Shown: positions 3,189 to 42,900 of the stretch, piece after piece
Numbering within the stretch: position 1 is the stretch's first letter
Layout of the letters: each line of letters opens with the position of its first letter
NCBI GenBank assembly: GCA_947454525.1
Contig: CANGJM010000004.1
Coordinates: forward strand, 124,001 to 188,000
Direction of reading: 5' to 3'
From: Flavobacteriales bacterium
GTDB lineage: Bacteria; Bacteroidota; Bacteroidia; Flavobacteriales_D; Crocinitomicaceae
DNA length: 64,000 bases
Notes under the pieces: generated by a model
What the model was told of the DNA's origin: nothing
Databases searched by the model: none
The model's input: only the letters and a program-made list of their open reading frames with translations
Program-made: the position numbers and the translations under genes

Positions 3189-3589
3189 GGGGCCGACCTT
3201 GGATTTGACAGCGATAGCGGTAGTCAAGTGTCAGCATGCAGAGGGTTGAGGTGAACCTCTTAAATATCTTGTCTCGAACAATAATTGACAACACGTCATA
3301 CGCACTTGCTGCTTAATTAGCTGAATGTTAATTGGCTTAATCCGACTGAAGCACAGTAGGTTGGACAAGTACTTTCGGTAGATCGTCGCCTAATCGATTT
3401 GCCACTCGAAAGTTCATCCCATTAGGCTAGTGTTTGCGATGGTACTAAGCAAATGCGAAATTCAGTACCTAAGTTCAGGTTTTGGGTGTTCTTGTCCGTG
3501 CCTGGATCGAAAAATAACCGAGGAATAAGCATGTAGAAAGCTTGAAAACTCGTCGTTTGGACGAGGGTTCGAACCCCTCCGGCTCCACC
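3189..3589 (+). ncRNA. ssrA: tmRNA (transfer-messenger RNA)
   Basis: 5' GGGGCCGACCTTGGATTTGACAGC; acceptor stem pairs with 3' CCCCTCCGGCTCCACC; T-arm GAGGGTTCGAACCCCTC; internal tag ORF ending ...DNTSYALAA followed by TAA at 3314-3316. Confidence 0.95.
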
Positions 3590-3592
3590 TTC

Positions 3593-3638
3593 GCTCGCCG
3601 AAGTTTTTGAGTATCAAAAACGAAGGCGAGCTTTTTTA
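3593..3638 (+). terminator. Hairpin followed by T-run downstream of tmRNA (hairpin copy R1)
   Basis: GCTCGCC..TTTTTGAGTATCAAAAA..GGCGAGC followed by TTTTTT; arms pair at the base and at the loop end. Confidence 0.65.
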
Positions 3639-3684
3639 TTCAACCCATTTCCAAAACTTAACTTTTTTCACTTAAAGCGAGTTA

Positions 3685-3720
3685 GCTCGCCGAGTTTTTG
3701 AGCATCAAAACGAAGGCGAG
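3685..3720. repeat. Second copy (R2) of the GCTCGCC-GAGTTTTTGAGxATCAAAAA-CGAAGGCGAG hairpin
   Basis: Near-identical to 3593-3631 (GCTCGCCGAGTTTTTGAGCATCAAAACGAAGGCGAG). Confidence 0.75.
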
Positions 3721-3776
3721 ATAAGGCGAACTTGTCAATCGTTTTTAGTGAAATATTTTCTTGAACTTTTCGTTTC

Positions 3777-4016
3777 ATGGATATGTATTATGTTTATAAA
3801 CTTAGATGTGCAAATGGAAGTCCGTACACTGGTTGTACAAATAATCTTGAAGCAAGATTAGAAAGACATGCCAAAGGATATGTATTTTCAACAAAGGACA
3901 ACCTTCCAATTGAGTTAGAAATGTATGTTGCTTTCAATGATAAATATAAAGCATTTGCATTTGAAAAATACTTAAAGTCAGGTTCAGGAAGGGCCTTTAC
4001 CAAACGTCATTTCTAG
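3777..4016 (+). CDS. Small GIY-YIG nuclease family protein
   Basis: MYYVYKLRCANGSPYTGCTNNLEARLERHAKGYVFSTK...KAFAFEKYLKSGSGRAFTKRHF: YVY-x-YTG and R-x3-H motifs of the GIY-YIG superfamily; start may be ATG at 3783. Confidence 0.85.
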   Translation: MDMYYVYKLRCANGSPYTGCTNNLEARLERHAKGYVFSTKDNLPIELEMYVAFNDKYKAFAFEKYLKSGSGRAFTKRHF

Positions 4017-4078
4017 TTTTTAATGGGATTCTATCTTTTTGATCCACTGCACGTTAGCCCACGGGGGAAAGCGCAGCT

Positions 4079-4095
4079 AACCCCTCCGGCTCCAC
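4079..4095 (+). repeat. Direct repeat of the tmRNA 3' end (att-like), AACCCCTCCGGCTCCAC
   Basis: Identical 17-mer at 3572-3588 in the tmRNA T-arm/acceptor and at 4079-4095, bracketing the GIY-YIG ORF. Confidence 0.8.
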
Positions 4096-4229
4096 ATACG
4101 CTTGACTTCTTTAATTAAAAGTAAATATTTAAAATGCAATATTTTACATTCTGAAATATTATCTCATTTTCAACGTTTAAAGAAAGCTGCACTTTAACTA
4201 CAAGCTACTTAATAAACGATTTAAAGAAT

Positions 4230-4553
4230 ATGAGCTCGATTTCAAAACTAGAACAAGGTAATAGCATATTTACCATTCGTGGTTGTCAAGTGATGATTGA
4301 CCGAGATTTAGCAGATTTGTATCGAGTGGAAGTAAAAAGAATCAATGAACAAGTAAAACGGAATATCGAACACTTTCCTGAATATTTTAGATTTCAACTT
4401 ACGGAAAATGAAACGAATGAACTGGTCGCAAATTGCGACCGGTTTCGTACGTTAAAGCACTCAAATCAAAACCCATTTGTTTATACTGAGCAGGGAGTAG
4501 CAATGTTGTCTGCTGTATTGAATAGCGAAACTGAAATAATTGAATTCATATGA
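4230..4553 (+). pseudogene. ORF6N-domain (KilA-N/Bro-N-like) gene, apparently 3'-truncated
   Basis: FTIRGCQVMIDRDLADLYRVEVKRINEQVKRNIEHFPEYFRFQLTENE..ELVANCDRF...PFVYTEQGVAMLSAVLNS is ORF6N-like; the ORF stops right after AMLSAVLNSETEIIEFI, at the ATGA where the next gene begins. Confidence 0.7.
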
Positions 4554-5400
4554 AAAACGAAATTATTTTTTATCAACCTAATGGAATGGTTAATCATCTA
4601 GAGATTAAACTTAACGATGATACTGTTTGGTTAAATAGACAGCAATTGGCTATTTTGTTTGATAGGAATATCAAAACAATTGGTAAACATATTTCAACTA
4701 TTTTACGTGAAGAATTGAAGGGACTTTCAGTTGTCGCAAATTTTGCGACAACTGCCGCAGACGGTAAGGTTTATCACGTTGAACATTACAATTTGGATAT
4801 GGTTATTTCCTTGGGTTATCGCGTAAAGTCTTCGCATGGAATTCAATTTAGGATCTGGGCAAATGAAGTTATTAAAGATTACCTCCTGAAAGGATATGCC
4901 GTCAATAATCGCATGAATCGAATCGAAGACCAAATGGAAAGCATAAAAACCAAAGTGGATCAAATCGACCTTCAACTCCAAACGCAACTGATCCCCACAC
5001 AAGGCATTTTCTTCGATGGACAAGTATTCGATGCGTATGCACTATGCTCACGGATTATTCGTTCGGCAAACAAGCGCATTGTGCTGATCGACAATTACAT
5101 CGATGAAAGCACCTTGGTACATATGAGTAAGAAGAGGGAGGGAGTGACCGTTCTGCTCCTGACAAAAACGATGAACAAACAGTTGAATTTAAATCTTCAA
5201 AAGGCCGAGGTTTTCGGCCCAACGAGCAATATGGTGGATTTGAACTGAAATCCTTTCATAAAAGTCACGACCGATTTCTCATTTTTGATGACCATGAAGT
5301 CTATCATTTGGGTGCTTCACTCAAAGATTTAGGCAAGCGCTGGTTCGCATTTTCAAAGTTGGATAAGTCATCTGTTGATGGATTGTTGAACATGATCTGA
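4550..5400 (+). pseudogene. RhuM-like protein with PLD-like C-terminus, frameshifted by a 14-bp hairpin insertion
   Basis: 232-aa ORF (4550-5248) matches the 5435-6301 protein until LQKA; 14 extra nt at 5207-5220 shift the frame. The remaining homologous sequence (FELKSFHKSHDRFLI..) continues in another frame to TGA at 5398-5400. Confidence 0.8.
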
Positions 5401-5434
5401 CGACTTGAATTAAGTTTCTAAAATTTTAATTCAC

Positions 5435-6301
5435 ATGAAAAACGAAATTATTATTTTCAATTCCAATGAACTTGCCCATCACATAGAGGTGAGAATGGAT
5501 GAAGAAAAAGAAACATTTTGGTTAACTCAAGAACAAATGGCTCAATTATTCGAACGGGATAGAACCGTGATTTCTAAACACCTGAAGAACATTTTCAAAG
5601 ATGAAGAATTAGACGAAAAAGTGGTGTGTGCATTTTTTGCACATACCACTCAACATGGTGCCATCCAAGGGAAAACACAAGGAAAGGAAATTAAATGCTA
5701 CAACTTGGATGCAATTCTCTCCGTCGGTTATCGCGTAAATTCAAAAAGAGGTACGCAGTTTCGCATTTGGGCGAATCGCGTTTTGAAGGATTACCTCCTG
5801 AAAGGATATGCGGTCAATAATCGCATGAATCGAATCGAAGACCAAATGGAAAGCATAAAAAACAAAGTGGATCAAATCGATCTTCAACTCCATACGCAAC
5901 TGATCCCCACCCAAGGCATTTTCTTCGATGGACAAGTTTTCGACGCGTATGCGCTATGCTCCCGGATTATTCGTTCGGCGAACAAACGCATTGTGCTGAT
6001 CGACAATTACATCGATGAAAGTACCTTGGTGCATTTGAGTAAGAAAAGGGTAGGAGTGACCGTTCTGCTCTTGACAAAAACGATGAACAAACAACTTCAA
6101 CTCGATCTTCAAAAGGCCAACGAACAATATGGTGGATTTGAGTTGAAATCCTTTCATAAAAGTCACGACCGATTTCTCATTATTGATAACCATGAAGTCT
6201 ATCATTTGGGTGCTTCGCTCAAAGATTTAGGCAAGCGCTGGTTCGCATTTTCAAAGTTGGATAAGTCCTCGGTTGATGGATTGTTGACATCGATCAAGTA
6301 A
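5435..6301 (+). CDS. RhuM-family N-terminal domain fused to PLD-like (HxRx4D) C-terminal domain
   Basis: N-term MKNEIIIFNSNELAHHIEVRMDEEKETFWLTQEQMAQLFERDRTVISKHLKNIF..YNLDAILSVGYRV (RhuM-type); C-term SRIIRSANKRIVLIDNYIDESTLVHLS..SHDRFLIIDNHEVYHLGASLKDLG. Confidence 0.85.
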   Translation: MKNEIIIFNSNELAHHIEVRMDEEKETFWLTQEQMAQLFERDRTVISKHLKNIFKDEELDEKVVCAFFAHTTQHGAIQGKTQGKEIKCYNLDAILSVGYRVNSKRGTQFRIWANRVLKDYLLKGYAVNNRMNRIEDQMESIKNKVDQIDLQLHTQLIPTQGIFFDGQVFDAYALCSRIIRSANKRIVLIDNYIDESTLVHLSKKRVGVTVLLLTKTMNKQLQLDLQKANEQYGGFELKSFHKSHDRFLIIDNHEVYHLGASLKDLGKRWFAFSKLDKSSVDGLLTSIK

Positions 6302-25603: not shown

Positions 25604-28600
25604 ATGAAAAACCTTTACATTTTTTCTAAATCATTGGGGAAACTAGCTTCCTTTCTAGTTCCGGTGTTATTTGTGATTGGTATGTTTGGAAGTACTTCTG
25701 AAGTACTTGCTCAATGTACAAATACAAGTTCATACGGTAGTGCAGTTGCCCCAACAGGAACGGCTGTGACCACGATTTCTACGTGTTCATACCAAACGGA
25801 GTACTCGACCATTACAAGTGTGGTTGCGGGAAATCGTTATGTTGTCACAAATAATGCTGCTGCAGGTGCGTTTATTACGATTCGCTATGCTACTTCAGGT
25901 GGTACAGCGGTGGCTGCAGGATTCTCACCTTTGCAGTTTACGGCTCCATGTGCGGGAACATACTATGCACACTGGAACACGAATGCTGCATGTGGAACGG
26001 CAACTGGCTGTACAACGACAACCATCAGTTGTGTTTCTTGTGGAGCAACCAATGGGAATCAATGTACCAATACATCTTCATATGGATCAGCTACTGCTCC
26101 AACAACGGGTTCTGTAAACTTTAGTACATGTAGTTACGCAAGTGAATACTCTACACTGAATTCTGTAGTTGCGGGTACCGTTTATCGTTGTTCCTCAAGT
26201 ATTGCAACTGACTTTATAACGATACGTTCAGGTTCATCAGCTGGACCAGTTGTTGCATCTGGAAAAGGTCCTTTAACTTGGACATCAACCGTTGCAGGAA
26301 CTTATTATTGTCACTGGAGTGCAAGTGCGGCTTGTGCCACTGCTTCAGGTTGTCGAACAACAAGCATCGCCTATGTTGGTGTTGGACCATGTTCTGGATG
26401 TACAGGTACTCCTGCTCCAGGTAACACCTTAACTTCTGCTGCATTCTGTCCTTCTGGATCCAGTGTGAATCTTTCTCTTCAAAATCCAACTGGAACAGGT
26501 GCTGTTTACCAATGGCAATCTGGACCAACTTCAACTGGTCCTTGGACCAACGTTGGAACAAATGCAACAACTTTCGCTCCAATTATTACAGGTGCAACTT
26601 GGTTTAGATGTGTCGTTTCTTGTGGTGTAAACGCAGGACCTTCTACTCCTGTTCAAATTACCTTAGGGCCATGTGTACCAGTTGGTTCAACTGTTTATTA
26701 TTTAACAAATACCAATTCAACAGGTGGTATTTCAAACATTGCCACGACAGGAGCGAGTCCAGGTGGATATGGTGACTACTATAATACTCAAACCGTTTCT
26801 CAATATCCAGGAATGAGTTTTGTGGTGAATATGAATTCCATTTATTCTTCGGATTATTTCCATGTATGGGTTGACTGGAACAATGACTTTGATTTTGTCG
26901 ATGCAGGTGAAACCATTTTTATCAGTACAGGATATCAAGCGAATGCGTCCGTTACTGTACCTATTGGAGCTAGTCAAACGCCAGGTAATTACCGCATGCG
27001 TGTAGCGAATAGTTACATTGGTTCAGTTGGTTCGTGTGGACCAGCGACTTATGGAGAGTATGAAGATTACAAATTAACGGTTTTAGTTCCACCACCATGT
27101 TCAGGAATGCCTAATCCAGGTAATACTGTAGCAAATTTAAATTCCGCTCCTATTGGAACAACAATTGTATTAGGATTGCAAAATGCAACGATTGGTACTG
27201 GGGTGACTTACCAATGGCAAACGTCTTCGTCTTCAACAGGACCTTGGACGAATATTACCGGTGCAACTTCGGCGACATACTCGTTCGCATTTGCAACTCC
27301 GGCATGGTATCAATGTATCGTCACTTGTTCTGCAAGTGGAAGCACGACTGCGAATCCTATTCAGATTACGCAAAGTGCATGTATTCCAACTTCAACATAC
27401 GGAAACTCCGGCGCATATTATGGTGTCATTACCAATGTGAGCTTTGGAACGATGAACCATACATCTGGAGCCTTAGCTGCCCCTTGGTATGCAAGTTATC
27501 CAACAACAGTTGCTACGACTTCTGTAGTTGCGGGGACGACTCAAAACCTTTCGATTTCAAGTTACTACTATGATATCGTTGGTGTTTGGTTTGACTGGAA
27601 CAATAACTACATCTATGAAACAACGGAGTACGTGGCAGTGAATCCTTTGAGTAACTCAGCTGGAGTTGCTTGGACAGGAACGGCATCAGTCCTTGTTCCT
27701 GCCAATGCAAGTGTTGGATTGGTGAACATGCGCGTGCGTACAAATTACTATGGATACGCATTAACTTCAGCGGATCCATGTACGACAACCCTATACGGTG
27801 AAACGAAAGATTACAAAATTACGATTGTTGCTCCTCCGGCAGCACCTCCGATTAATGCCACAGCGTTTTCTTCATGTGCGGCGGGTGTAACATTAACAGC
27901 TTCTGTTGCAGCACCTGCTAACGTTTCTTATTACTGGCAAACAAGTGCTACTGGAACAAGTACCGCTAATGGGGTTGCTTCTTATGTGGTTTACGGAAAT
28001 GGAACGTATTATTTACGTGCGGTGAATACCTTATATAATGTATGGGGATTAGCGAGTTCAATTACCATCACATCCTTCCCAACAGTAACTCCTCCAACGG
28101 CAATCATTGTGAGCACACCAAGTTGCCCAAGTGCCAATTTGACAATGGGTGCAGCTCCTTCAGGAATCAATTACTATTGGCAAGGAACGAACTCGGCTGG
28201 ATTCTCTACAACAAATAATGCGACAGCAGCCTATAATACAAGTACAACAGGTACCTATTACGTTCGTGCGAAAGATGCAAGTGGTTGTTGGTCAGATAAC
28301 ACTTCTTCATTAGTAACGATTTATACTTCTCCAAATGCGACTGCAAACTTTGTGGCGCCTATTACTTGTGGTACAAACGGACAAATCGTATTCAACGTTC
28401 AAGGTTCAGGAACGGTATTCTTAAGTGATTTTGGTACAAATACATTGCCAACAGGAACAATTTCTGCGGGGAATGACTTCAATCCAAGTGTAAACGGACG
28501 AATGCAGTTGACTTCTCCAGTTGGAAGTAAAAATGGTGGGGTAGTGATTCCAAATAATACTGGAATTGCTTCGAACGACTTCCAAATTGACTTTGATTTC

Positions 28601-31600
28601 GTAACGATTTCTGCAGGTGTTGCAGCAGCAGATGGATTTAGCTATAGCTACGGTCCAGATGTAGTGGCTTTACCAGATGCAACTGCGGTACAAACAGCGT
28701 TGGGTGCTGCTCCTGCAACCGGTGTTTCAACACTTTGTCCAGAAAATGGATCAGGTACAGGATTGAAATTGGCATTTGATGCCTATTCAAATACAGGTGG
28801 ATGTCCAGTAGCAAATGGTACGACGGCTTCGGGTCCGAATACCTCTGTAGGTAACTCTCCTGGAGTTTATTTAATGTACAACTCTACTAGTTTACACCAA
28901 GGTTCTTCTTGTCCAGGTGTACTTTACTATTCAAATAATACCGCTTGGGCTGCATCTGGGCTTGCGGGTACAGTTACATCCACTCACGTTACCATCAAAA
29001 TTAATGCAACGGGTCAAGTATCTATGTGGCAAAATGGTGTGCAAGTAGTGAACAACGTTGCATTAGGTGCTGGTTACCTTGCAGCGGATAAGAGTACTTG
29101 GAAACATGCGTTTACGGCTCGTACAGGTGGACTTTATGAAGGACACTACATCGATAACTTAGATATTCACTACAATTTGTATGAATATTCTATTGATAAT
29201 GGTGCAACATGGACCATGCAAAATCCTATTCCAGTTCCAATCGGAATGTACCAAACAAAAGTTCGTTACGCAGGTGTAACAAACGGATGTGAGACTTCAG
29301 CAACCATCGGTTTAGCTTCAAATGGAGCGGTTAACATTGGTTCAGCTTTAATCAATGGTTCAGCAACTGCCAATATATGTTCAGGAACGAACTTCACAGT
29401 TATGGCGGCAGGCTTGCCAAATGCAGGTGGAGGATTTCAATACCAATGGCAAGCATCAACAAACAATGGTGCGACTTGGTCAAATGTTGGAACACTCATG
29501 ATTGCTTATATTGATCTGACAACTTCGGCTACTCAAAATACGCAATACCGTTTACAAGTAATTTGTCCGACAGTGACAACATACACATCTGTTGCAACAG
29601 TGACCATTTTCCAAACTCCGGCATTTACGTTATCAGCAAGTAACAATGGGATTTGGTGTGATAACTTCACCGGTGCTCAAACGATTACTGCTTCGAATGC
29701 AGGAATTACCTACGCTTGGTCTCCAGCAACTTCTTTAAGTGCTGCGACTGGTCAAACGGTTACATCAACGACACCAGCAGGTACGCAATCAACGTATACC
29801 GTGATTGGTACAAACGTAGCTGGATGTGCATTGACACAAACCATTTCAGTTGGTTTACCTTATATTAACGTTACATCAAACGTATCTAACTTCTGTGGAT
29901 CAGGTGGTTCTGCTGTGTTAACGGCAACAACCAACGCAGGAGCGAATGCTTCCTTTACTTGGTCTAACTTAAGTCCAACAACGGCAACAATGACTCCAAA
30001 TGGAGCAACTGCAAACGTGAGCATTACAGCAACGTCAAACTTCCAAGTATCGATTGCATCGTACAATGGAAATGCAGGTTGTGCTTCCGTAGGGAACTTC
30101 TCCTTAGGTGTATATCCATTGCCATCTGCGACGGTTACTACATCTGCATCTGGTGTTTGTCCAGGGACTTCAGCAGTAATTAACTCTGGTTTGAGTAGTG
30201 GAAACTTCTCCGCGATTTGTACACCATATGTGAATTATCCAGCTCCTTCGAATGCGACCTACTTGGCTAACACAGGATTGGCACAAGTGGCATTAGCTTC
30301 TGGTTCATTAGATGACGGTGGTTGGAGCGGAATTCCTTTAGGATTTAACTTTAACTTCTTTGGAACAACCTACAACACACTTAACGTTGGAACAAATGGA
30401 GTTCTTCAGTTTGGAGCTTACAATGCAACAGCTTTAGGTGACTTTACGATTGGTGCCTTACCAAATACAGTGGATCCACTTGGTGCGATTTACATCTGTG
30501 CAAATGACCTTGTTGAGTACAACGCAAACAACTACGTTCGTTATTGGACAGATGGTTTTGCTCCGAATAGACGATTTATCATCGAGTATTATGCAAGTCA
30601 ATTTGGAAATGCAGCAAACAAAGTGCGTGCGAAAGCTATTCTTTATGAAACCATCGGTGTAGTGGATGTTCAAGGAATTGAAATCATGTCAACGAATTCA
30701 AAATCTATCGGTGTGAATAACGCAACTGGAACAGTTGGAGCTGCGGCGCCGAACTGTCCTTCAAATACACCGAATTATTGGTCAGCGCAAACAGCAACCA
30801 TTCCAGCTGCTTCTCCACAAGCTTGGAGATTTACTCCACCGGCGAATTACACAACGGTTTGGACAGCAACAGCAGGTGGAACACCAATTGTTGTGGCAAG
30901 TGGAACGAATATCTTTAGTTTGAACGTTGCGCCAACGGTAACGACGAACTACTCGATTTCTTACACGAACCAAACAACTGGATGTTCGAATGCGCCAGGT
31001 TCTGCACAAGTAACAATGGCCGTATTAGGTGTTGTAGCTCCATCAGGAGTAAACGCATTAACTTCTAGTGCGCTTGTTTGTCCAGGTGATCCATTTACAC
31101 TTTCAAACAACTACACAGGAATTGTAGACGGATTGACTTATCAATGGCAAAGTGCACCAGCTGCATCTGGACCATGGACAAACATTACAGGAGCAACAGC
31201 AGCGACAAGTGTTCAAAACATGACGGCTACCACATATTACCGTTGTAACATCCAATCTTGTGGAGGAACAGCAGTGGCAACGGCAGCAGTATTGGTAAGC
31301 TTAAATACAAACTGTATCGCGGTTCCCGCAGCAGGTAACAATTCCATTACAACCTGTAACGGTGTGATCTTTGATAACGGTGGATTAACTGGACCTTACG
31401 CAGCGAGCAGCAATGGTTATACCGTAATTTATCCTTCCACACCAGGTTACATGGTTCAAATACAAGGAACTCAGTATTCTGAAGCGTCGTACGATTACCT
31501 GCAAATTTACAACGGGGTCGGAACAGCTGGTACACAGTTGTATAACTTCTCAGGAACGTCAAGTGCAGTAGGACCAATTACGTCAACTACAGGACCTTTA

Positions 31601-34600
31601 ACGGTTAACTTCTATGCTGATGCGATAATTCAATATGATGGATTTGCCTTAACATCGACATGTATTCCTCCAACACCAACAGTAACTTCAAACATTGCAA
31701 GTGCAAGTGTTTGTATTGGTAGTCCAATTACCTTAACTGCGGCAATTGCCGTTCCAGGAACAGTATATTGGTTCGCAGGCGGATGTGCTACAACGGGTCA
31801 AGTTGGAACAGGATTGTCATTGACGGTTTCTCCTTCAACGACCACAACATATTATGCACGTCTATTCGACGGAACAGTTTGGTCTACTTGTAGTTCTTAT
31901 ACCGTAACAGTAAATACATATCCAGTGATTAACGCTGGTCCAGATGTGAATATTTGTAATGGTGCAACTACTCAATTGTCAGGTTCAGTAACAAACGCTA
32001 CTGCTCCAGGGACATTTACACAGACATATTCTGGGTCTGGTTACGATAATAGTAATTTCTCTATAGGTGGCTTGACTTCAGGTGCTCCTGCAGGTGCAAC
32101 AATTACTTCCATTACCTATACAGCAACTATCGGAACTTTCTGTACTTCATGGTATAATTACAACTATTATGTAAATGGTACTTTGGTCACTGCTGGCTGT
32201 GATGGAACATTTACGTATACTGGATTAAATGGTCAACCTGCAAACGGTCAATTGTTGCAGATTTTCTCTCAAGACAATGATGCTTTTGCAGATTTTGTGA
32301 CGATGGGCTTAACAGTTACTGTGAATTATGCGGTAGCAGCGTCCACGACGGTTTGGACACCAGCAATTGGATTAAGTGCTACGAATATTCTAAATCCAGT
32401 GGCGAATCCAACAACGACGACAAACTATAATATGGCGGTAACATCTGCGCAAGGATGTACATCGAATGATCAAGTACTTGTAACGGTTCAACAATTACCG
32501 GTAGTGACGATTGCTAATCAAACGGTTTCAACATTCTGTAACGGTGGAAGTGTGGTGTTAGCACCAACGCCAACAGCACAAAGCTATGCTTGGACACAAG
32601 GAACAACGCCAGTTGGAACAGGTTCAACGTATACAGCTACAACTTCAGGAACGTATTCCTTGGTGGTAACAAATTACTATCCAACTACCGCACTTACATG
32701 TAGCAGTTTACCTTCAAATGCGATTACAGTAACCGTGAATCCAAATCCAAATACGACAATCACTCCGAGTGGTTCAACAAGTATTTGTCAAGGAGCTAGT
32801 GTTTCTTTAGCTGCAGGTGCGACAAACTCTACACCAGTGACTTACTTATGGTCGAATGGTGCAACTACTTCAAGTATCGTAGCAACCGCTTCAGGATCTT
32901 CTACAGTGGCGATCACGAATAACTTCGGTTGTACAACGACTTCGGCACCAACAACCGTAACGGTTCTTCCATTGCCAGTGGCGACTATCACAGCAGGTGG
33001 ATCAACAACGTTCTGTGCTGGTGGTTCGGTAGCATTGAATGCTTCGACAGGAGCTTCTTACTTGTGGTCTCCAGGTGGGGCGACAACTCAAGCATTATCG
33101 GCAACGACTTCTGGAAACTATTCAGTAACAGTTACAAGTGCAAACGGATGTTCAGCAACTTCAACACCAATTGCGGTGAATGTATTGACTGCTCCGGCGA
33201 ATGCGCCAATTGCTGGTCCTGCTTCATTGTGTGTGGGTAATGCTGTGGCATTGACAAACCCTGTATCAAATGGTGTTTGGTCAAGTTCAAATACTTCTGT
33301 TCTAAACGTGAATGCTTCAACAGGAGCAGGAGTTGGAAATGGAATTGGAACAGCAACGGTTACCTATACAACAACAGGTGCGAATGGATGTACTTCCGCT
33401 CAAACAGCAACAGTGAACGTTACAGGTTCTCCAGTCGCTTCGATTTCAACTACAGGAGCTACAGCAATCTGTCAAGGTGGAACAGTGACATTAACTGCGA
33501 ATCCTGCTTCATCTTACTTATGGAATAACAATGCAACAACTCAATCGATCACTGTTTCGAATGGTGGTGCTTACTCTGTGGTGATTTCAAATGGTCCTGG
33601 ATGTTCGTCTGCAGCATCTGCTCCAACAACAGTTACGGTAAATGCTTTACCAGTTGCTGCAATCAGCGCGAATGGTTCCACAGTGTTCTGTCAAGGTGGA
33701 AGTGTAAACTTAACAGCGACAGGTGGTTCAACATATGTATGGAGTAACAATACAACAGGAGCAACGCTTTCTGCTAATACAGCAGGAAACTACTTTGTGA
33801 CTGTAACAAATGCAAATGGTTGTACGGCAATTTCCAATACGATTGCAGTTGCGGTTAACGCCTTGCCAACGGCAACAATCACGGCGAACGGACCAACAGC
33901 GTTCTGTCAAGGTGGAAACGTTGTGTTGACAGCAGGAGGAAATGGAGCAATTGTTTGGACAAATAATCAAAATACACCTGCGATTACGGTAGCAGCATCA
34001 GGAAACTATGCGTACACGATCACGGATGCGAATGGTTGTTCAGCAACATCAACTCCAACAACGGTAGCCGTATCAGCTTTACCAGTTGTTCCTTCCATCA
34101 CAGGTGCTAACAACGTATGTTCTGGTGCATCTACTTTATTTGCGAATACAATGACTGGTGGAACTTGGTCAAGTTCCAATGGATCAATTGCATCTGTTGA
34201 TGCTTTAGGTTCAGTGACAGGATCAGGTGTTGGTTCTGCTACCATCTCTTACCAAGTAACGCAAAATGGTTGTTCAGCAACATCAACGAAAGTCATCAAC
34301 GTACAAGCTGCTCCAGTAGCAAGTATCTCAGCGTTAAGTTCAACAAGCTTCTGTGTTGGAGCGAACGTAACGTTGGTTTCTTCTCCAGGAGTATCGTATG
34401 TTTGGTCAAATGGTGCATCAACACAAAACGTTACCTTGAATACTGCTGGACCTATCACGGTTCAAGTAACAGGAACGAACGGATGTTCTGCGACATCAGC
34501 GCCACAAACAATCACCGTAAATGCACTTCCAATATTGGATCCAATTGCAGGAGCGAGTGTGGTGTGTGTGGGATCAACAGGAACATTGACAAATACAACA

Positions 34601-36445
34601 GGTGGAGGTTCTTGGTCAAGTGCCAATGCGAACGTAGCAGTAGTAAATGCTTCTACGGGGGCTGTTTCAGGAAATGCGGCTGGTACAGCAAACATAACAT
34701 ACGCTTACACGAATGCAAACGGATGTTCAGCATCAGTGAGTGCGCCGGTGGTGATTCAAGCATTGCCAAGTGCGGCAACAACAGTAGCTGGTTCAACAGT
34801 ATTCTGTCAAGGTGGATCCGTAACGATTACAGCTCCAACAGCTGCGTCTTACATATGGTCTCCAGGTGGAGCAACAACACAGTCAATTTCTGCAACAGCA
34901 GGTGGAACGTATACGGTTCAAGTATCCAACGGAGCTTGTTCATCTACTTCTCCAGCAACTGTGGTGACTGTAAATGCATTGCCGACAGCGAGTATCTCAA
35001 GTTCAGCGACTGCAATTTGTCAAGGTGGATCAGTTACATTGACTGCAGCACCAGCAACAACCTATACTTGGACAAATGGTGCAACAACACAATCGATCAA
35101 CGTAACAACGGCAGGAAACTACGGTGTGACCGTTTCGAATGTGAATGGTTGTACAAGTACATCAGCGCCTACAGCAATCAGTGTAAGTGCAGTGCCAGCA
35201 TCGTTTATCTCTGCTGCAGGACCAACAACATTCTGTAATGGAAGTAGCGTTGTCTTAACAGCGAACGCAGGTTCATCTTACGTGTGGTCAACGGGAGCAA
35301 CAACGCAAAATATCACCGTGAATGCAAGTGGAAACTACTTCGTGACTATTTCGAACGCGGCTGGATGTTCAACAGTATCCAATGAGATTCAAGTGACTAC
35401 GCAGCAAACGTTTGGCGCAACTGCTACAGCGGTTGGACCAACAGCAGTATGTAACGGAGCATTTGTTACCTTGGTAGCATCTCCTGGAACATCTTACTTA
35501 TGGTCAAATGGTGCAACAACACAAGGTATCAATGCAGGAGTAAACGGAAACTACAACGTGACTGTAACGAATGCTTTAGGATGTACTTCAACGTCAACAA
35601 ACATTCCAGTAACGATCTTACCAGTTCCAACTGCGGGAATCACGACAAGTGGAGCGACAACGTTCTGTGAAGGTGGATCCGTTGTATTGACAGGAACAGG
35701 TGGTAACACATACATTTGGAACTCTAGCATCAATGGTTCAACAATCACAGCTACGCAAGCAGGAACGTACATCGTAACGGCTTACGCAGCGAATGGATGT
35801 TCAGATGCGGCTGAAGTGATTGTAAACGTGAACGAAGTTCCTTCTGGATCATTGATTCTGAATGGTAACAATGTTCTTTGTCCAGGTGAGTCCTTAGTGA
35901 TCTCTGCACAACCGAACAACACGTACACTTGGAGTAACAACGCGACTACACAGTCAATCACGGTAACGACTCCGGGAACGTATTCAGCGGTATTAACTGG
36001 ATTGAACGGATGTACATCGAATTCAGATGTAGTAACTGTAACAGCTGGAGCAGCGACGTCAAGTACAATTGATGCAACAGCGTTGAGCAGTTACACATTG
36101 AATGAAGTGGTTTACACGCAATCAGGAACGTACACACAAACCTTGACGAATGCGGCAGGATGTGACAGTACAATTACCTTGAACTTAACATTGACAGTTG
36201 GAATCGAAGAAGGAAACATCACAGATGTGACGTTGTACCCGAATCCAACAAGTGAGTCATTTACGATTAAAACTTCAGCGCCAGTTTACGGTACATTCAA
36301 CATCGTAGACGCACAAGGTAAGCTTGTGTTTGCAGGGGAGATGACAGGAACGGAAACGAATGTAAACATCGCTAGCGTTGCTAGAGGAATTTACTACTTA
36401 CGTATTCCAGAAGTGTCAGAACCACTACGCGTAGTGAAAAACTAA
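25604..36445 (+). CDS. Giant (3613 aa) T9SS type A cargo, adhesin-like: GEVED, L-type lectin-like, CUB-like and Ig/PKD-like repeats
   Basis: Signal peptide ending STSEVLAQ; two GEVED domains (HVWVDWNNDFDFVDAGET..; VGVWFDWNNNYIYETTEYV..); lectin-like (NDFNPSVNGRMQLTSPVGSKNGG..FQIDFDF..ADGFSYSYG); CUB-like (VIFDNGGLTGPYAASSNGYTVIYPS..YDYLQIYNG); about 12 Ig-like repeats; C-term VTLYPNPTSESFTIKTSAPVYGTFNIVDAQGKLVF..GIYYLRIPEVSEPLRVVKN. Confidence 0.93.
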   Translation: MKNLYIFSKSLGKLASFLVPVLFVIGMFGSTSEVLAQCTNTSSYGSAVAPTGTAVTTISTCSYQTEYSTITSVVAGNRYVVTNNAAAGAFITIRYATSGGTAVAAGFSPLQFTAPCAGTYYAHWNTNAACGTATGCTTTTISCVSCGATNGNQCTNTSSYGSATAPTTGSVNFSTCSYASEYSTLNSVVAGTVYRCSSSIATDFITIRSGSSAGPVVASGKGPLTWTSTVAGTYYCHWSASAACATASGCRTTSIAYVGVGPCSGCTGTPAPGNTLTSAAFCPSGSSVNLSLQNPTGTGAVYQWQSGPTSTGPWTNVGTNATTFAPIITGATWFRCVVSCGVNAGPSTPVQITLGPCVPVGSTVYYLTNTNSTGGISNIATTGASPGGYGDYYNTQTVSQYPGMSFVVNMNSIYSSDYFHVWVDWNNDFDFVDAGETIFISTGYQANASVTVPIGASQTPGNYRMRVANSYIGSVGSCGPATYGEYEDYKLTVLVPPPCSGMPNPGNTVANLNSAPIGTTIVLGLQNATIGTGVTYQWQTSSSSTGPWTNITGATSATYSFAFATPAWYQCIVTCSASGSTTANPIQITQSACIPTSTYGNSGAYYGVITNVSFGTMNHTSGALAAPWYASYPTTVATTSVVAGTTQNLSISSYYYDIVGVWFDWNNNYIYETTEYVAVNPLSNSAGVAWTGTASVLVPANASVGLVNMRVRTNYYGYALTSADPCTTTLYGETKDYKITIVAPPAAPPINATAFSSCAAGVTLTASVAAPANVSYYWQTSATGTSTANGVASYVVYGNGTYYLRAVNTLYNVWGLASSITITSFPTVTPPTAIIVSTPSCPSANLTMGAAPSGINYYWQGTNSAGFSTTNNATAAYNTSTTGTYYVRAKDASGCWSDNTSSLVTIYTSPNATANFVAPITCGTNGQIVFNVQGSGTVFLSDFGTNTLPTGTISAGNDFNPSVNGRMQLTSPVGSKNGGVVIPNNTGIASNDFQIDFDFVTISAGVAAADGFSYSYGPDVVALPDATAVQTALGAAPATGVSTLCPENGSGTGLKLAFDAYSNTGGCPVANGTTASGPNTSVGNSPGVYLMYNSTSLHQGSSCPGVLYYSNNTAWAASGLAGTVTSTHVTIKINATGQVSMWQNGVQVVNNVALGAGYLAADKSTWKHAFTARTGGLYEGHYIDNLDIHYNLYEYSIDNGATWTMQNPIPVPIGMYQTKVRYAGVTNGCETSATIGLASNGAVNIGSALINGSATANICSGTNFTVMAAGLPNAGGGFQYQWQASTNNGATWSNVGTLMIAYIDLTTSATQNTQYRLQVICPTVTTYTSVATVTIFQTPAFTLSASNNGIWCDNFTGAQTITASNAGITYAWSPATSLSAATGQTVTSTTPAGTQSTYTVIGTNVAGCALTQTISVGLPYINVTSNVSNFCGSGGSAVLTATTNAGANASFTWSNLSPTTATMTPNGATANVSITATSNFQVSIASYNGNAGCASVGNFSLGVYPLPSATVTTSASGVCPGTSAVINSGLSSGNFSAICTPYVNYPAPSNATYLANTGLAQVALASGSLDDGGWSGIPLGFNFNFFGTTYNTLNVGTNGVLQFGAYNATALGDFTIGALPNTVDPLGAIYICANDLVEYNANNYVRYWTDGFAPNRRFIIEYYASQFGNAANKVRAKAILYETIGVVDVQGIEIMSTNSKSIGVNNATGTVGAAAPNCPSNTPNYWSAQTATIPAASPQAWRFTPPANYTTVWTATAGGTPIVVASGTNIFSLNVAPTVTTNYSISYTNQTTGCSNAPGSAQVTMAVLGVVAPSGVNALTSSALVCPGDPFTLSNNYTGIVDGLTYQWQSAPAASGPWTNITGATAATSVQNMTATTYYRCNIQSCGGTAVATAAVLVSLNTNCIAVPAAGNNSITTCNGVIFDNGGLTGPYAASSNGYTVIYPSTPGYMVQIQGTQYSEASYDYLQIYNGVGTAGTQLYNFSGTSSAVGPITSTTGPLTVNFYADAIIQYDGFALTSTCIPPTPTVTSNIASASVCIGSPITLTAAIAVPGTVYWFAGGCATTGQVGTGLSLTVSPSTTTTYYARLFDGTVWSTCSSYTVTVNTYPVINAGPDVNICNGATTQLSGSVTNATAPGTFTQTYSGSGYDNSNFSIGGLTSGAPAGATITSITYTATIGTFCTSWYNYNYYVNGTLVTAGCDGTFTYTGLNGQPANGQLLQIFSQDNDAFADFVTMGLTVTVNYAVAASTTVWTPAIGLSATNILNPVANPTTTTNYNMAVTSAQGCTSNDQVLVTVQQLPVVTIANQTVSTFCNGGSVVLAPTPTAQSYAWTQGTTPVGTGSTYTATTSGTYSLVVTNYYPTTALTCSSLPSNAITVTVNPNPNTTITPSGSTSICQGASVSLAAGATNSTPVTYLWSNGATTSSIVATASGSSTVAITNNFGCTTTSAPTTVTVLPLPVATITAGGSTTFCAGGSVALNASTGASYLWSPGGATTQALSATTSGNYSVTVTSANGCSATSTPIAVNVLTAPANAPIAGPASLCVGNAVALTNPVSNGVWSSSNTSVLNVNASTGAGVGNGIGTATVTYTTTGANGCTSAQTATVNVTGSPVASISTTGATAICQGGTVTLTANPASSYLWNNNATTQSITVSNGGAYSVVISNGPGCSSAASAPTTVTVNALPVAAISANGSTVFCQGGSVNLTATGGSTYVWSNNTTGATLSANTAGNYFVTVTNANGCTAISNTIAVAVNALPTATITANGPTAFCQGGNVVLTAGGNGAIVWTNNQNTPAITVAASGNYAYTITDANGCSATSTPTTVAVSALPVVPSITGANNVCSGASTLFANTMTGGTWSSSNGSIASVDALGSVTGSGVGSATISYQVTQNGCSATSTKVINVQAAPVASISALSSTSFCVGANVTLVSSPGVSYVWSNGASTQNVTLNTAGPITVQVTGTNGCSATSAPQTITVNALPILDPIAGASVVCVGSTGTLTNTTGGGSWSSANANVAVVNASTGAVSGNAAGTANITYAYTNANGCSASVSAPVVIQALPSAATTVAGSTVFCQGGSVTITAPTAASYIWSPGGATTQSISATAGGTYTVQVSNGACSSTSPATVVTVNALPTASISSSATAICQGGSVTLTAAPATTYTWTNGATTQSINVTTAGNYGVTVSNVNGCTSTSAPTAISVSAVPASFISAAGPTTFCNGSSVVLTANAGSSYVWSTGATTQNITVNASGNYFVTISNAAGCSTVSNEIQVTTQQTFGATATAVGPTAVCNGAFVTLVASPGTSYLWSNGATTQGINAGVNGNYNVTVTNALGCTSTSTNIPVTILPVPTAGITTSGATTFCEGGSVVLTGTGGNTYIWNSSINGSTITATQAGTYIVTAYAANGCSDAAEVIVNVNEVPSGSLILNGNNVLCPGESLVISAQPNNTYTWSNNATTQSITVTTPGTYSAVLTGLNGCTSNSDVVTVTAGAATSSTIDATALSSYTLNEVVYTQSGTYTQTLTNAAGCDSTITLNLTLTVGIEEGNITDVTLYPNPTSESFTIKTSAPVYGTFNIVDAQGKLVFAGEMTGTETNVNIASVARGIYYLRIPEVSEPLRVVKN
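32749..36030 (+). repeat. Array of about 12 Ig/PKD-like repeats (ITxxGxTTFCQGGSVxLTAxxxxSYxWSNGATTxSIxVxxxGxYxVTVTNxxGC) with interspersed Big_2-like units
   Basis: Counted by eye in the translation; each unit has a conserved FCxG and a GC near its end. Confidence 0.85.
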
Positions 36446-36715: not shown

Positions 36716-36910
36716 TAACCAGGTGCTTGGCACTAGTTCACTAATCCCCAATACTCGATAAACCCCCAACAATAATCATCGGATTAATCTAAATATTCGA
36801 TGAAAACCCCTTCTTGTTTCTTTTCAACAAGCAAATGTTCATTGGTCTTGATTTTGAGTATTTTAATTTCTAAATTGGGGCTACCAAAACTGTATTTTAG
36901 ACCCGAGACT

Positions 36911-39900
36911 ATGAATATTACTACTATTCTCCGCTCAGCGCAAGCTGTAATCAATTCACGTACGATTTCCACTACATCTGTATCCAACGCAGTTCCATCT
37001 AAGAAGTCAAGCATGACCTCGTTTATGCTGGCGCTTAGCTTGCTTTTTTCTTTGTTGAGTGTTGAGAGCTGGGGGCAGACGGTTGTTAGTTATACAACTC
37101 CGGGTAGTTATTCCTGGGTTTGTCCTACAGGGGTTACATCTGTAACTGTTCAATGTTGGGGTGCAGGTGGGTCAGGAGGTATTTCGGGATTTACTAAGGC
37201 CGGAGGAGCTGGAGGTGGAGGAGGTGCATTTGCTTCATCTGTGATAAATGTTACTCCGGGTAATTCGTATTCAATTGTTGTGGGTGCAGGTGGGATTTCA
37301 CCAACATCCACTGCAACAACTGGAAATACAGGTGGACAATCATACTTTAATACACCTTTAACTGTAATGGCTATTGGAGGAAGTGGCGGAGGATATTACA
37401 TTTCATCTACTAGTCCTGGAATTGGAGGAAATGGTGGGGCTTTTAATTCTTGCGTGGGAACAATTCGTTGGAGTGGAGGTAATGGTGGTAATTCTTCCTC
37501 AACTACCGGTAATTCTGCTACTTCCGGTGGAGGTGGCTCAAGTGCAGGTACTGGTGCAATTGGAAATAATGCAAATTTATTCACTGGAGGTGCAGCTCCA
37601 TCAGGTGGCGTTGCTGGAGTAAATGGATATAGTTCAGGAGCTGCCGGAGGTGCAGTAGGTACAAACGGAAATCCTGGTGGGGGTGGGGGATCCGGTTCTC
37701 GAAATAGTGGTACTGCAGGATTGATTGCAGGAAATGGCGGTGGAGGAAAAATTATTTTAACATTTACAGAGCCACCTTGTTCTGGAACTCCCAATCCTGG
37801 AAACACAGTATCTTCGGTTTATGCTGTTGTGTCTGGTGGTACTGTTAATTTATCCCTCCAAAATGCTACTAGTGGAACAGGAATAACATATCAGTGGCAA
37901 TCATCTACCACTTCTTCTACTGCGGGTTTTTCAAATATTAACGGTGCTACGAATAGTACTTATGTAACATCTTTGTCCGTTTCAACATGGTTTCGTTGCG
38001 TAGTTTACTGTTCCGTTAGCTCCGGGATTTCTAATGCTGTTCAAGTTTTAGTTCAGCCATATTGCGCACCAACAGGTACTGCATCTTATTACATTAATAA
38101 TTTTTCAACTACATCCGGATTAACAAACATAAACAATTCAACATTGTCTAATGGAGGTTATGGTAATTTTACTTCTCTCAATGTTTCCAATATTGCCGGT
38201 AGTTCAACAGGATTTTCAATTAGTCATTCGGCAACTTCAGGCGGAGCGGGAGTTGGTATATGGGTCGATTGGAATAATGATTTTGATTTTGCTGATGCAA
38301 ATGAACAAATAGCGCTGACTACAGCATATAATTATAGTCCTTTTACTGGTTCTATTATTGTTCCTGCCTCTACTCTTGCGGGAAATTACAGACTGAGGAT
38401 TGTAATTGATTATAATTCGACGTCTCCAATAAATTGTCCTGTTGGTATCAGTGGGGAAACAGAAGATTATATTTTTCAGGTAGTGGAATGTACATCACCT
38501 TCAACTCAAACCTCTGCTTTAACTGCGGGAACACCAGGTGTAACTTCCGCCAATATAAATTGGACAAATGGAAATGGTGCTGGAAGGGTCGTGTATATCA
38601 ATTCTACGAATTCGTTTACGAATCCAAATATCGGATCAAATCCTACAGTTTCCACAGCCTGGTCTAATACAGGTCAACAGTGTATTTATAATGGCACAGG
38701 TACTGGCCCAGTCACGGTTACTGGTTTATCTGCTTCTTCAACCTATTATCTCAGGGCATTTGAATATTGTGCTCCGGATCGCAATTATCAAACAGCCACA
38801 GCAACGGGGAATTCAAATTCATTTACTACATCGGCTCCAAGTCCAACCATAACGGTCATTGGTGCCCCAACTTTTTCTAACCAATGTGTGAATACCACAA
38901 GTAATCAAAGTTCTTTTACAGTTAGTGGGGTTTACTTAACGAATAACGTAACTATTGGTGCAGTAACAGGATACACTTATTCTACAAATCCAGCTGGCCC
39001 ATATACTAATTCTCTAACTTTTTCTCCGACAACTGGAACCTTAGCATCGACAATTGTATATGTGCGATTTACACCTACATCTGCAACTACCTTTAATGGG
39101 CCAATTGTGGTTTCTAGTACAGGTGCGACTACGCAGAATGTGGTTGTTTCGGCTGCAGGTGTTAATGCAAGTATTTCAAGTCAGCCTTCCTCTGCGGCAG
39201 AAACATATTGCAATGGAACTTCAGCAACGGCGTTAAGTGTAACAGTTCCGTCTGCAGGAGGAAGTAGTTATTCCTACCAATGGTATTCAAATGCTGCCAA
39301 TTCAAACTCAGGTGGTACGTTAATTACTAATGCAACATCAGCTTCCTATACACCACCTACGACCTCAAATGGTACAACTTATTACTATTGTGTGGTTTCA
39401 GGCTGTGGAACGAGTACGTCTACGTCAACGGTTTCTGGAGCGATTAATGTGGTGAGTTGTTCAAGTACGAACATTCCAGCTACAGGTTCAACAAATGTAG
39501 TATGCGGAACGAACACATACATTTATGACAGTGGTGGACCATCAGGTGATTATGCTACAAATAGTAATGGATTTATTGTCCTTAATAATTCTGGAAATGG
39601 AATAATTACAATTAGCGGTAGTTACTCTGCAGTTGAATCATGTTGTGATGATATAAATATTTATTCTGGTTCGGGAACAACAGGAACTCTCCTATATAAC
39701 TATTTTGGTTCTGGAAATATTACTACCTACTCGAGTACACCAGGTGAAACAATCACTATCCAAATTGTTTCAGATGGATCTGTACAGGGTGCTGGCTTGA
39801 GTTTGCTTGCAACTTATTCAGGTTTCCCCACCATTAATAATGTTTCCCCAACGAATATTTGTGGAGGTGGAACCTTAACTATTAATGGATCCAATTTCTC

Positions 39901-42900
39901 AAATATTACTGGGGTTACCATTAACAACACGGCAGTTGCTTCATATGTTGTAAATAGTCCTACGTCAATTACGGCGGTATTAACATCGAATCAAGTTGGT
40001 GGTGTTGTTGCAGTCAATTCCTCATTTTGTTCAGGAATAAGTACGACAGGTAGTTCGGTAACAATTTTACCCTCGCCAACGCTAACTTCTTCCGGAAGTG
40101 TTGCCCCAGTTTGTACATCCACCTCAGGGCAAATTACTACCTTATCATATACAGCCACCTCGAATAGTCCAATCAGTTATCAATTGGATTGGAATGCTGC
40201 TGCCAATGCAGCTGGATTAATTGACGGTACACTCACGCCATTTAGTTTCGTGGTTACGGGAGGAACAATTAATATCCCTGTTGCGGCTAACGTGGTTCCT
40301 GGGGTGTATTCAGGAACTCTCAATTATTCTAATTCAAATGGATGTTCTGGAACACAGGTTGTGAGTTTAACAATTACTCCAATTCCAACCTTGGCAAGTG
40401 TGTCTCAACAGTCTAGTTTATGTTACACACAAAATGTCAATACAAATGCAAGCATTCAATTGTCTGGATTATTACTTAACACTGCTCAGACTGCTACGTA
40501 TAATATTAATGGAGGTACTTCACAAACAATCGCATTTACTTCTTCCGCTTCTGGAACTGCAACATTGTCTGTGCCAGTTGTTTTGGCTAATAACGGTCAA
40601 ACACTTTCAATTACCAGCATCAACTGTGCGAATTTTACAACAAATAATAGTTGTGTCCTCTCCATTATTCAAGCACCAACGGCACCATCCGTTTTACCAT
40701 TAACACAAACAGTAAATGTTGGAGCCTCAGCAACTTTCACAGGAACGCGCAGTGCTTCAGCAAATACAATGACTTGGTGGACTGCTGCTTCTGGAGGAAC
40801 GGAAATTGATCCAGATGGGCCGGCGCTTTCTGTTGATTCTGTTTTCAATTCTTATGATGCGGTTGTTTTACCTTCTACGTCAATTGACTTTTGTACACCT
40901 GGTTTGATTAATGCTTCCACAACAACTTATAAGTACTACGTTCAACAGTATGATGGAACTTGTCCAAGTGCAAGGACCATGGTTCAAGTATTTACTAATC
41001 CGTTGGTTTCAAGTAGTAGTTCTAATAATTTGATTTGTCAGACGGGAGCATCTGTAACATTAACAGCAAATATAACGCAAGCCGTTGGTAGCCAAATTCA
41101 ATGGCAATTTGCCACCAATGCAAGCGGAACGGCCAACCCACCAGTGAACAATAATTTGTTACCCGGAGATTTTACCAATTTAAGTCCAAACGGAAATAGC
41201 ACTATAATTTCTGTTAGTCCATCTGTTAGTACAACGTATCAATTAAATACTGCTTCTCCATTTATGCCTTTTGGTTGTAATGTTACAACATTCAATAATA
41301 CAATCGTAAGTCCTATAAGTACGCAACAAAATGTATTGGTTTATCCATCTTTAGATTTTACACCGGTTGCAAATCCTTCTTCGATTTGTGTAGGCGGAAC
41401 ATCTACACTAATTCCGAATACACCGAATGGTAATTTTACTGCTTCGTGTATTTTACCAATAACCAGTTTAAGTTCGCCACCTACAGGTGTAACTCCTTGG
41501 GTTTTATCATCAAATGGAAGTTTAGCAACTTCACAAACATCTACTCCAAATGCTCTCCAAACAGGAGTTTTGGGCACAAATGCGGCCTTGGATGATGGAT
41601 ATTGGAGTAATATCCCAATTGGATTCACTTATAACTTTTTTGGTGAAAATGCAACAACGGTTCATATTGGTTCTAATGGAACAGTAGTTGTTGGAGTATT
41701 AAATGCGGTTGGCTCCTCACTTTATAATTTCACCGGAGGTTTCCCAAATACGGCAAACCCTGCAAGTACGATTGCTGTTTGTGCAAGAGATTTGTATTTA
41801 TCTTCTGGTTCCATTAAGTATTGGACCGAAGGGATTGCACCTACCCGTCGATTTATAGTTCAATATGACAATGTAGCCACTTACTGTTTTGGATGTTCAG
41901 GTGGTACGCAAAGTGCAGAATTAACATTGTATGAAACTTCAGGAGTAATTGAAATACGCTTATTGCAAGCTACGAATGGCTCATCTTCAGGTAGTGCCAC
42001 TTTAAAATACATTGGTCTTCAGGATCCAACTAAAACAATTGGGGCTACAGCTCCAAATTGCAGTGTTCCAAATCAATCAAATTATTGGAATGGTATTAGT
42101 GATGAGATCTCTTCATCATTAGCTTGGAGATTTAGTCCTCCATCCAATTATAGTATTGATTGGTATCAAGGATCAGGTTCAAATTTATCTGCACTAGTAT
42201 CTATTCCTTATCTTGCTGCAAATTCCACCAGTAGTTATTTTTACTCGACCTTACCTTCTCAATCGACCAATTCAGGTCAAATTACTTATTCTGTTTCGGC
42301 AACAAACACTATTACTGGATGTCCGGCAACTAAATCGGTATACGTGAATGTAAACAGTATAACAAATCCTCCTCAAGGAATCAATTCTTCCCAATGTGGA
42401 CCAGGAATTCCGACATTAGTTTTAAATACTGGAAATAACTCATCAAATTCCGTTTATTCTTGGTACGCAGCAAACCCATCATTAAATTCGAGCTTATCAA
42501 CTTATTATTCGAATAACTTCTCTAATAATATTGGGGTGAGTCCTTCTCCGGTTGGAGTATTAAGTGGTAATGCCTCACTTCAAGGGGGGGGCTTTATTCG
42601 ATTAACATCAAACAACCCGGATCTTTTAGGAGGTTTTACTATTCCAGCTAGTGGGGTAAACTCGAGTATTTATCAAATGATGTTTGATATACAGACCCCT
42701 CAAACAAGTGGTGCGGATGGTATTTCATATAGTTTTGCTAATGATGCTGATGCTAGCGCAACGGTTCCTTCAGCGGAGAATGGCACTGGAACAAAGTTGG
42801 TTGTCTCATTTGATGAATATGGATCTGGAAATGGCGGGTCAGGAATACGTTTAGTTTATGGCGGTGCAGCGGATAACCTACCCCAAGCATCGGGAGGAGT

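Follow-up and report, generated by a model that had tools for sequence, protein, structure and literature searches.

A family of short chromosomal units, each pairing a small GIY-YIG nuclease gene with a tRNA or tmRNA gene, recurs in Bacteroidota and Patescibacteria. Judged from sequence comparison, these units are probably minimal mobile elements that enter tRNA and tmRNA genes and restore the target with a copied gene end. The example from which we start lies behind the tmRNA gene of the window, a 64,000-nt stretch of a Flavobacteriales contig, and on the same reading it is probably one member of the family. The genomes with which it was compared (designated G below) are drafts, and some of the arrays described here reach contig ends.

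The tmRNA locus of the window and its relatives

The initial annotation of the window had described a GIY-YIG cassette bracketed by a duplicated tmRNA 3' end, with two near-identical hairpins and no integrase. The duplication is confirmed (Table 1): the two copies of AACCCCTCCGGCTCCAC are 507 nt apart, the match lengthens to 24 nt at 92%, and chance alone would not be expected to place the same exact 17-mer twice within 500 bp. The GIY-YIG gene also stands as described, and it is the only plus-strand ORF of at least 50 aa that starts between the repeats; Pfam, run on the four ORFs that lie from the tmRNA to the helicase gene, detected no integrase. Both hairpins were found, but the second is an imperfect copy, with a folding z score of -2.2 against -5.3 (-22.8 kcal/mol) for the first. 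Together with its T run, the first hairpin occupies the position of the tmRNA terminator, and its architecture is conserved across phyla. No group I intron fold was found around the ORF, and Rfam at gathering scores returned only the tmRNA in the window.

Table 1. Features at the tmRNA locus, in window positions
Feature	Position	Strand	Basis or remark
tmRNA gene (ssrA), intact, target	3189-3589/3590	+	ARAGORN and Rfam
Proposed unit, 507 bp, entering the tmRNA T-loop between GGGTTCG and AACCCC	3572-4078	+	Repeat spacing; boundaries by analogy
17-nt tmRNA 3' end AACCCCTCCGGCTCCAC, read as the gene-restoring end	3572-3588	+	
Second 17-nt copy of AACCCCTCCGGCTCCAC, read as the orphaned end of the target gene	4079-4095	+	
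Left-end hairpin GCTCGCC-GAA-GTTTTTGA/TCAAAAAC-GAA-GGCGAGC, then T run	3593-3631	+	
Imperfect second copy of left-end hairpin	3685-3720	+	z -2.2
79-aa GIY-YIG ORF	3777-4016	+	PF01541, E 2.7e-12
Right junction segment CTTTTTGATCCACTGCACGTTAGC...GCGCAGCT	4035-4078	+	
Possible remnant of the left end of another unit, CATACGCTTGACTTC vs CCTTCGCTCGCCTTC	4095-4109		Weak

The insertion site had been placed at the 3' end of the tmRNA gene. It does lie in that gene, but the boundary falls in the T-loop, 18 nt from the tmRNA 3' end, where the stability percentile of the abutting DNA is 0.043. The limits of the unit were set by analogy with the filled and empty tRNA-Phe sites described below and with boundary positions at other loci. 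The right junction segment is not random sequence, as it is also present in tmRNA units of related genomes that have no GIY ORF; it contains a short hairpin, GTTAGC/GCTAAC, that extends into the right-hand repeat. Positions 4035-4112 align at 86% with a related locus (L067), which is the weak basis for the possible decayed left end in Table 1. Between the unit and the helicase gene, the window also has an ORF6N gene and two RhuM-family genes (4230-6301), of which G015 retains only a remnant of the last.

In related genomes, the tmRNA site has been entered repeatedly by units that spare the gene and strand its native end. Empty ssrA loci, which the annotation had suggested looking for, exist in G045 and G025, where the tmRNA is directly followed by the terminator TCCACAGGAAAGCAC. 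Two different ORF-less inserts occupy the site in G068 and G050, each ending in a copy of the tmRNA 3' end plus TCCACAGGAAAGCAC; it is because these inserts precede the native terminator of G045 and G025 that we conclude on repeated entry. One ORF-less unit, unit A (TCTGAT...CCACTGCACGTTAG...CCCCTCCGRCTCCAC), is common at the tmRNA in this genus. As side observations, the inverted repeat of unit A has arms that both co-vary between genomes (GATCAAAAAGCT/AGCTTTTTGATC and GATAAAAGCACTG/CAGTGCTTTTATC, by inspection of L058, L196, L203, L205 and L036, all after tmRNA), and the tmRNA of G080 is followed by near-identical tandem copies of the tmRNA 3' end plus terminator with no ORF (L043).

These neighbors bear on how the bracket in the window is to be read. 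The annotation had held that a second repeat in relatives without the cassette would count against it, and this is in part the case: a second tmRNA 3' copy is present and the GIY ORF absent in G022 and G068, because other, ORF-less units occupy the site. At the tmRNA of G015 the GIY unit is present and the right-hand copy absent. Also, the GIY unit is followed by an A-like right end in the window and in G002, and is preceded by A in G036. The repeat at 4079-4095 may derive from a neighboring ORF-less unit A, and 3572-4078 may be a composite in which a GIY unit is fused to the right end of A, because the right part of the bracket is common to ORF-less units and G015 has no right copy. A single clean insertion spanning 3572-4078 was considered and is not proven, given the copy without GIY in G022 and G068 and the GIY unit without copy in G015. 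A composite locus in the window leaves the family-level picture untouched. The annotated idea of a minimal element that rebuilds its target is thus supported at the family level, by recurrence, filled and empty tRNA-Phe sites and tandem units, while the window bracket itself is possibly composite.

Recurrence, loop boundaries and empty sites

As the annotation had anticipated, the arrangement occurs elsewhere, at many tRNA and tmRNA genes with end copies in two phyla. The same nuclease lies 3' of the tmRNA in close relatives (L065, L066 and L067), and in distant relatives it follows tRNA-Ser (Patescibacteria) or tRNA-Ala or tRNA-Asp (Bacteroidota); altogether, the family is found beside more than 10 kinds of tRNA. 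Patescibacteria have tiny genomes, yet 166 of the 240 sampled carry the family, with up to 14 matches per genome. A same-strand tRNA or tmRNA lies within ~520 nt upstream of the ORF at 22 of the 30 best Patescibacteria loci, compared with a chance value of ~1-2% that we estimated from ~45 tRNA genes per Mb. This linkage does not extend to the superfamily as a whole, since a related clade of GIY-YIG ORFs, which served as an internal control, is without it in 12 of 13 rows. Relatives in different phyla are 65-70% identical. In the protein tree, target kinds are clustered (46 changes vs 62.4 when shuffled, with none of 200 shuffles as low), although near-copies contribute to this count, and the tmRNA group of the window branches from within tRNA-Ser elements that belong to another phylum. 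The presence of the units is patchy. We found no relative in the phages, plasmids and viral contigs searched, and Rfam returned only an unrelated riboswitch at loci without a detected tRNA.

The left end recurs with the nuclease. CC followed by TTCGCTCGCCGAAG stands directly after the mature end of tmRNA, tRNA-Ser, tRNA-Ala and tRNA-Asp in the two phyla; the exact left-end 16-mer occurs in 2 of 396 genomes across Bacteroidota, so this end is not universal. The left end folds into a stem, a symmetric GAA/GAA internal loop and a further stem, whose sequences vary between elements with the pairing kept (152 of 160 cells paired and no shuffle above 135, an illustrative figure from arms picked by eye).

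Beyond the ORF, a target-end copy scoring at least 12 was detected at 12 of 57 3'-side loci and 8 of 17 5'-side loci, compared with 0 in shuffled controls, 0 in reversed controls and 1 or 0 at other loci; in this query-versus-flank test, 0 of 57 shuffled or reversed flanks reached 12. The test used terminal segments only; its whole-tRNA version had a noisy null because tRNAs share the T-loop. The copy is undetectable at about 45 of the 57 3'-side loci, which decay of a useless copy would explain, as would simple adjacency. Where copies were found, they have regular limits: those of 3' units reach as far as the T-loop and end 16-23 nt from the 3' end (10 of 11), and those of 5' units end in the D-loop, at a distance of 10-23 nt from the 5' end (8 of 8). 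By stability, the junction stretch ranks in the top 10% of the 40-nt windows of its locus for 8 of 11 3' units and 8 of 8 5' units. With 15-30 nt, the end copies are too short and too conserved for dating a foreign origin. A probably element-borne gene end together with the native end beyond the ORF was seen at tRNA-Phe, tRNA-Arg, tRNA-Leu and tmRNA.

Filled and empty sites are seen at tRNA-Phe within one genus. The site is filled in G015 and G068, in the order tRNA, terminator, GIY ORF, palindrome, and a copy of the last 18 nt plus terminator; it is empty in G036, G002 and G000 (the genome of the window), with the tRNA and terminator only and flanks 73-90% identical to the filled locus. Hence, the tRNA-Phe locus has what is expected of a homing element, namely a position beside its target and related alleles without it. 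Units also occur in tandem. The tRNA-Phe unit of G015 is repeated (329 bp, 98% identical), and at tRNA-Arg of G073 a 295-bp unit of the 5' version is present twice at 100% identity, in an array that reaches the contig end. Slippage alone can produce tandem arrays.

It would be tempting to regard such loci as remnants of genomic islands, the repeats being att scars of tyrosine-integrase islands and the GIY ORF a leftover passenger. The 3' ends of ssrA and tRNA genes receive integrase-driven islands that leave a copy of the RNA-gene end on the far side, much as is found beyond the inserts described here, and the tmRNA 3' end is a classic site of this kind. The ORF6N and RhuM genes downstream and the several different units at one tmRNA site would also fit. 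However, there is no integrase between the repeats, the inserts measure 0.3-0.5 kb, the ~300-bp tandem units hold only a GIY gene with short tRNA end copies, one nuclease family serves more than 10 kinds of tRNA, the 5' units are bounded in the D-loop, phage and plasmid matches were not found, and the filled member of the tRNA-Phe pair in G068 contains the GIY unit only. An origin from islands is therefore unlikely.

Another process that could yield tandem units is duplication driven by hairpins, in which a tRNA end is duplicated and a REP-like palindrome inserts into its D- or T-loop, the GIY gene being only a neighbor or the helper of the palindrome. The junction palindrome TCCGCCNNGGCGGA is indeed dispersed, with 38 sites in the genome of the window and 27, 21, 17 and 4 in others (reversed control, 0); 12 of 16 inspected sites lie outside open frames of at least 100 codons, and the palindrome may have inserted independently of GIY units. 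It also breaks ORF-less half-tRNA arrays (L232, L229 and L172). Against this, the palindrome varies in sequence between genomes while its position and linkage to GIY are constant, and the 3' units at tmRNA and tRNA-Ser are without TCCGCCNNGGCGGA, which makes this explanation a quite unlikely one. As to the arrays themselves, L172 (G000:C8:1-571, in the genome of the window) has three tandem 70-bp ORF-less units before an intact tRNA-Arg, each a tRNA-Arg(tct) 5' half whose D-loop is interrupted by TCCGCCCCGGCGGA or a close variant of it, and a distant GIY-YIG ORF follows the intact gene. L232 (in G015) and L229 and L235 (both in G058) hold the 5' half of a different tRNA in 52-bp tandem arrays, interrupted by the TCCGCCNNGGCGGA palindrome, and no GIY ORF was seen near these three.

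The nuclease and a possible route of insertion

The 79-aa ORF of the window is intact and encodes a UPF0213-like single domain (residues 3-71). Membership in this family follows from profile similarity to UPF0213 structures, the best matches being 1zg2 (E 8.8e-18) and 1ywl (E 1.1e-13), and the closest named relatives of the window are Crocinitomicaceae MAGs. Y7, Y17, G19, R27, H31 and E63 are invariant in the alignment, and catalytic-type residues are thereby retained. Known free-standing GIY-YIG homing endonucleases typically have a separate DNA-binding region, whereas this protein ends at residue 79 with no such region beyond its catalytic domain, which is a real difference. Ssn, a family of site-specific single-strand GIY-YIG nucleases, offers a lead only.

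Compared with three relatives, the ORF has a dN/dS of 0.04-0.07: purifying selection on it, at the same locus in several species, is strong. Such selection is unusual for a fixed homing gene and leaves room for a host function of the protein. That the gene is altogether a host gene, kept beside tRNA genes for a cellular job such as tRNA or DNA end processing, would agree with this constraint, with the transcription direction shared with the tRNA or tmRNA and with the left hairpin in terminator position, but is improbable given that the gene is patchy and, at one locus, present or absent among genomes of a single genus, that it occurs in many copies per genome at different tRNAs and that relatives across phyla are 65-70% identical.

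We therefore favor mobile elements that restore their targets, which are probably moved by free-standing homing of the GIY-YIG nuclease. A unit would consist of a copy of the target end, a structured stretch, the UPF0213-like nuclease gene and usually a junction hairpin; in 3' units the structured stretch would follow the gene end and often supply its terminator, and the junction hairpin would adjoin the orphaned piece of the host gene. We speculate that the nuclease cuts an empty tRNA or tmRNA gene in the T-loop (3' units) or the D-loop (5' units), and that the host repairs the break from a template in which the gene end flanks the element on both sides. The copy carried by the element would then restore the gene, and the host's own end would be left stranded beyond the element. 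Subsequent exchange between these two short repeats could amplify units in tandem, and internal loss could give rise to ORF-less mini-units. The comparisons above show the anatomy of the units, their recurrence, the end copies with their boundary positions, the filled and empty sites, the tandem units and the constraint on the protein; from these we infer the cutting, the repair route and the mobility in trans of the mini-units.

Relation to known elements

Two described systems resemble the family in part. SegB of T-even phages is a free-standing, intron-less GIY-YIG homing endonuclease encoded beside tRNA genes, and its action in T6 produces tandem repeats of a 718-bp unit of tRNA-Tyr and segB, in which the 5' end of the tRNA shares microhomology with the 3' end of segB (PMC13096335, citing Brok-Volchanskaya 2008). 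The tRNA-adjacent GIY-YIG gene without an intron and the tandem amplification are thus shared with SegB, which is phage-borne and for which the available part of that account describes neither a rebuilt tRNA end nor a loop-bounded copy (PMC13096335). In contrast, the present family resides in bacterial chromosomes, encodes a single domain of 79 aa in the window and uses many kinds of tRNA. Mobile ORFs of fungal mitochondria, known from hybrid genes in Allomyces (atp6) and Glomus (atp6, atp9, cox2 and nad3), carry a copied 3' end that replaces the host end and leaves the native end downstream (PMC3630166). In carrying a target-end copy and displacing the native end beyond the ORF they are like the units described here, but they occupy mitochondrial protein genes and are mostly LAGLIDADG (GIY-YIG in atp9), and a 5' version, a left-end hairpin and mini-units are not described in the available part of that source (PMC3630166).

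For UPF0213, the records of the closest solved structures say hypothetical proteins only, and tRNA-gene linkage holds for only part of the related sequences found here. Our literature search returned no description of GIY-YIG genes with tRNA genes in Patescibacteria or with tmRNA in Bacteroidetes, and none of such units in the literature on UPF0213. The family looks like undescribed minimal self-moving DNA. We advance more tentatively, as a claim that may well fail, that it forms an undescribed class of autonomous elements of 0.3-0.5 kb, each with one single-domain GIY-YIG nuclease, precise T- or D-loop entry, restoration of the gene by the end copy of the element, hairpin ends and ORF-less derivatives, abundant in Patescibacteria with exchange to Bacteroidota. 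If true, these would rank with the smallest autonomous mobile elements on record for bacteria, and target rebuilding, so far described in fungal mitochondria, would extend to bacterial chromosomes. They would also account for the partial tRNA copies that lie next to tRNA genes in the two phyla and suggest a role for a group of small GIY-YIG proteins whose nearest solved relatives are without assigned function.

Elsewhere in the window there are two giant ORFs, at 25604-36445 and 36800-55324, of 3613 and 6174 aa.
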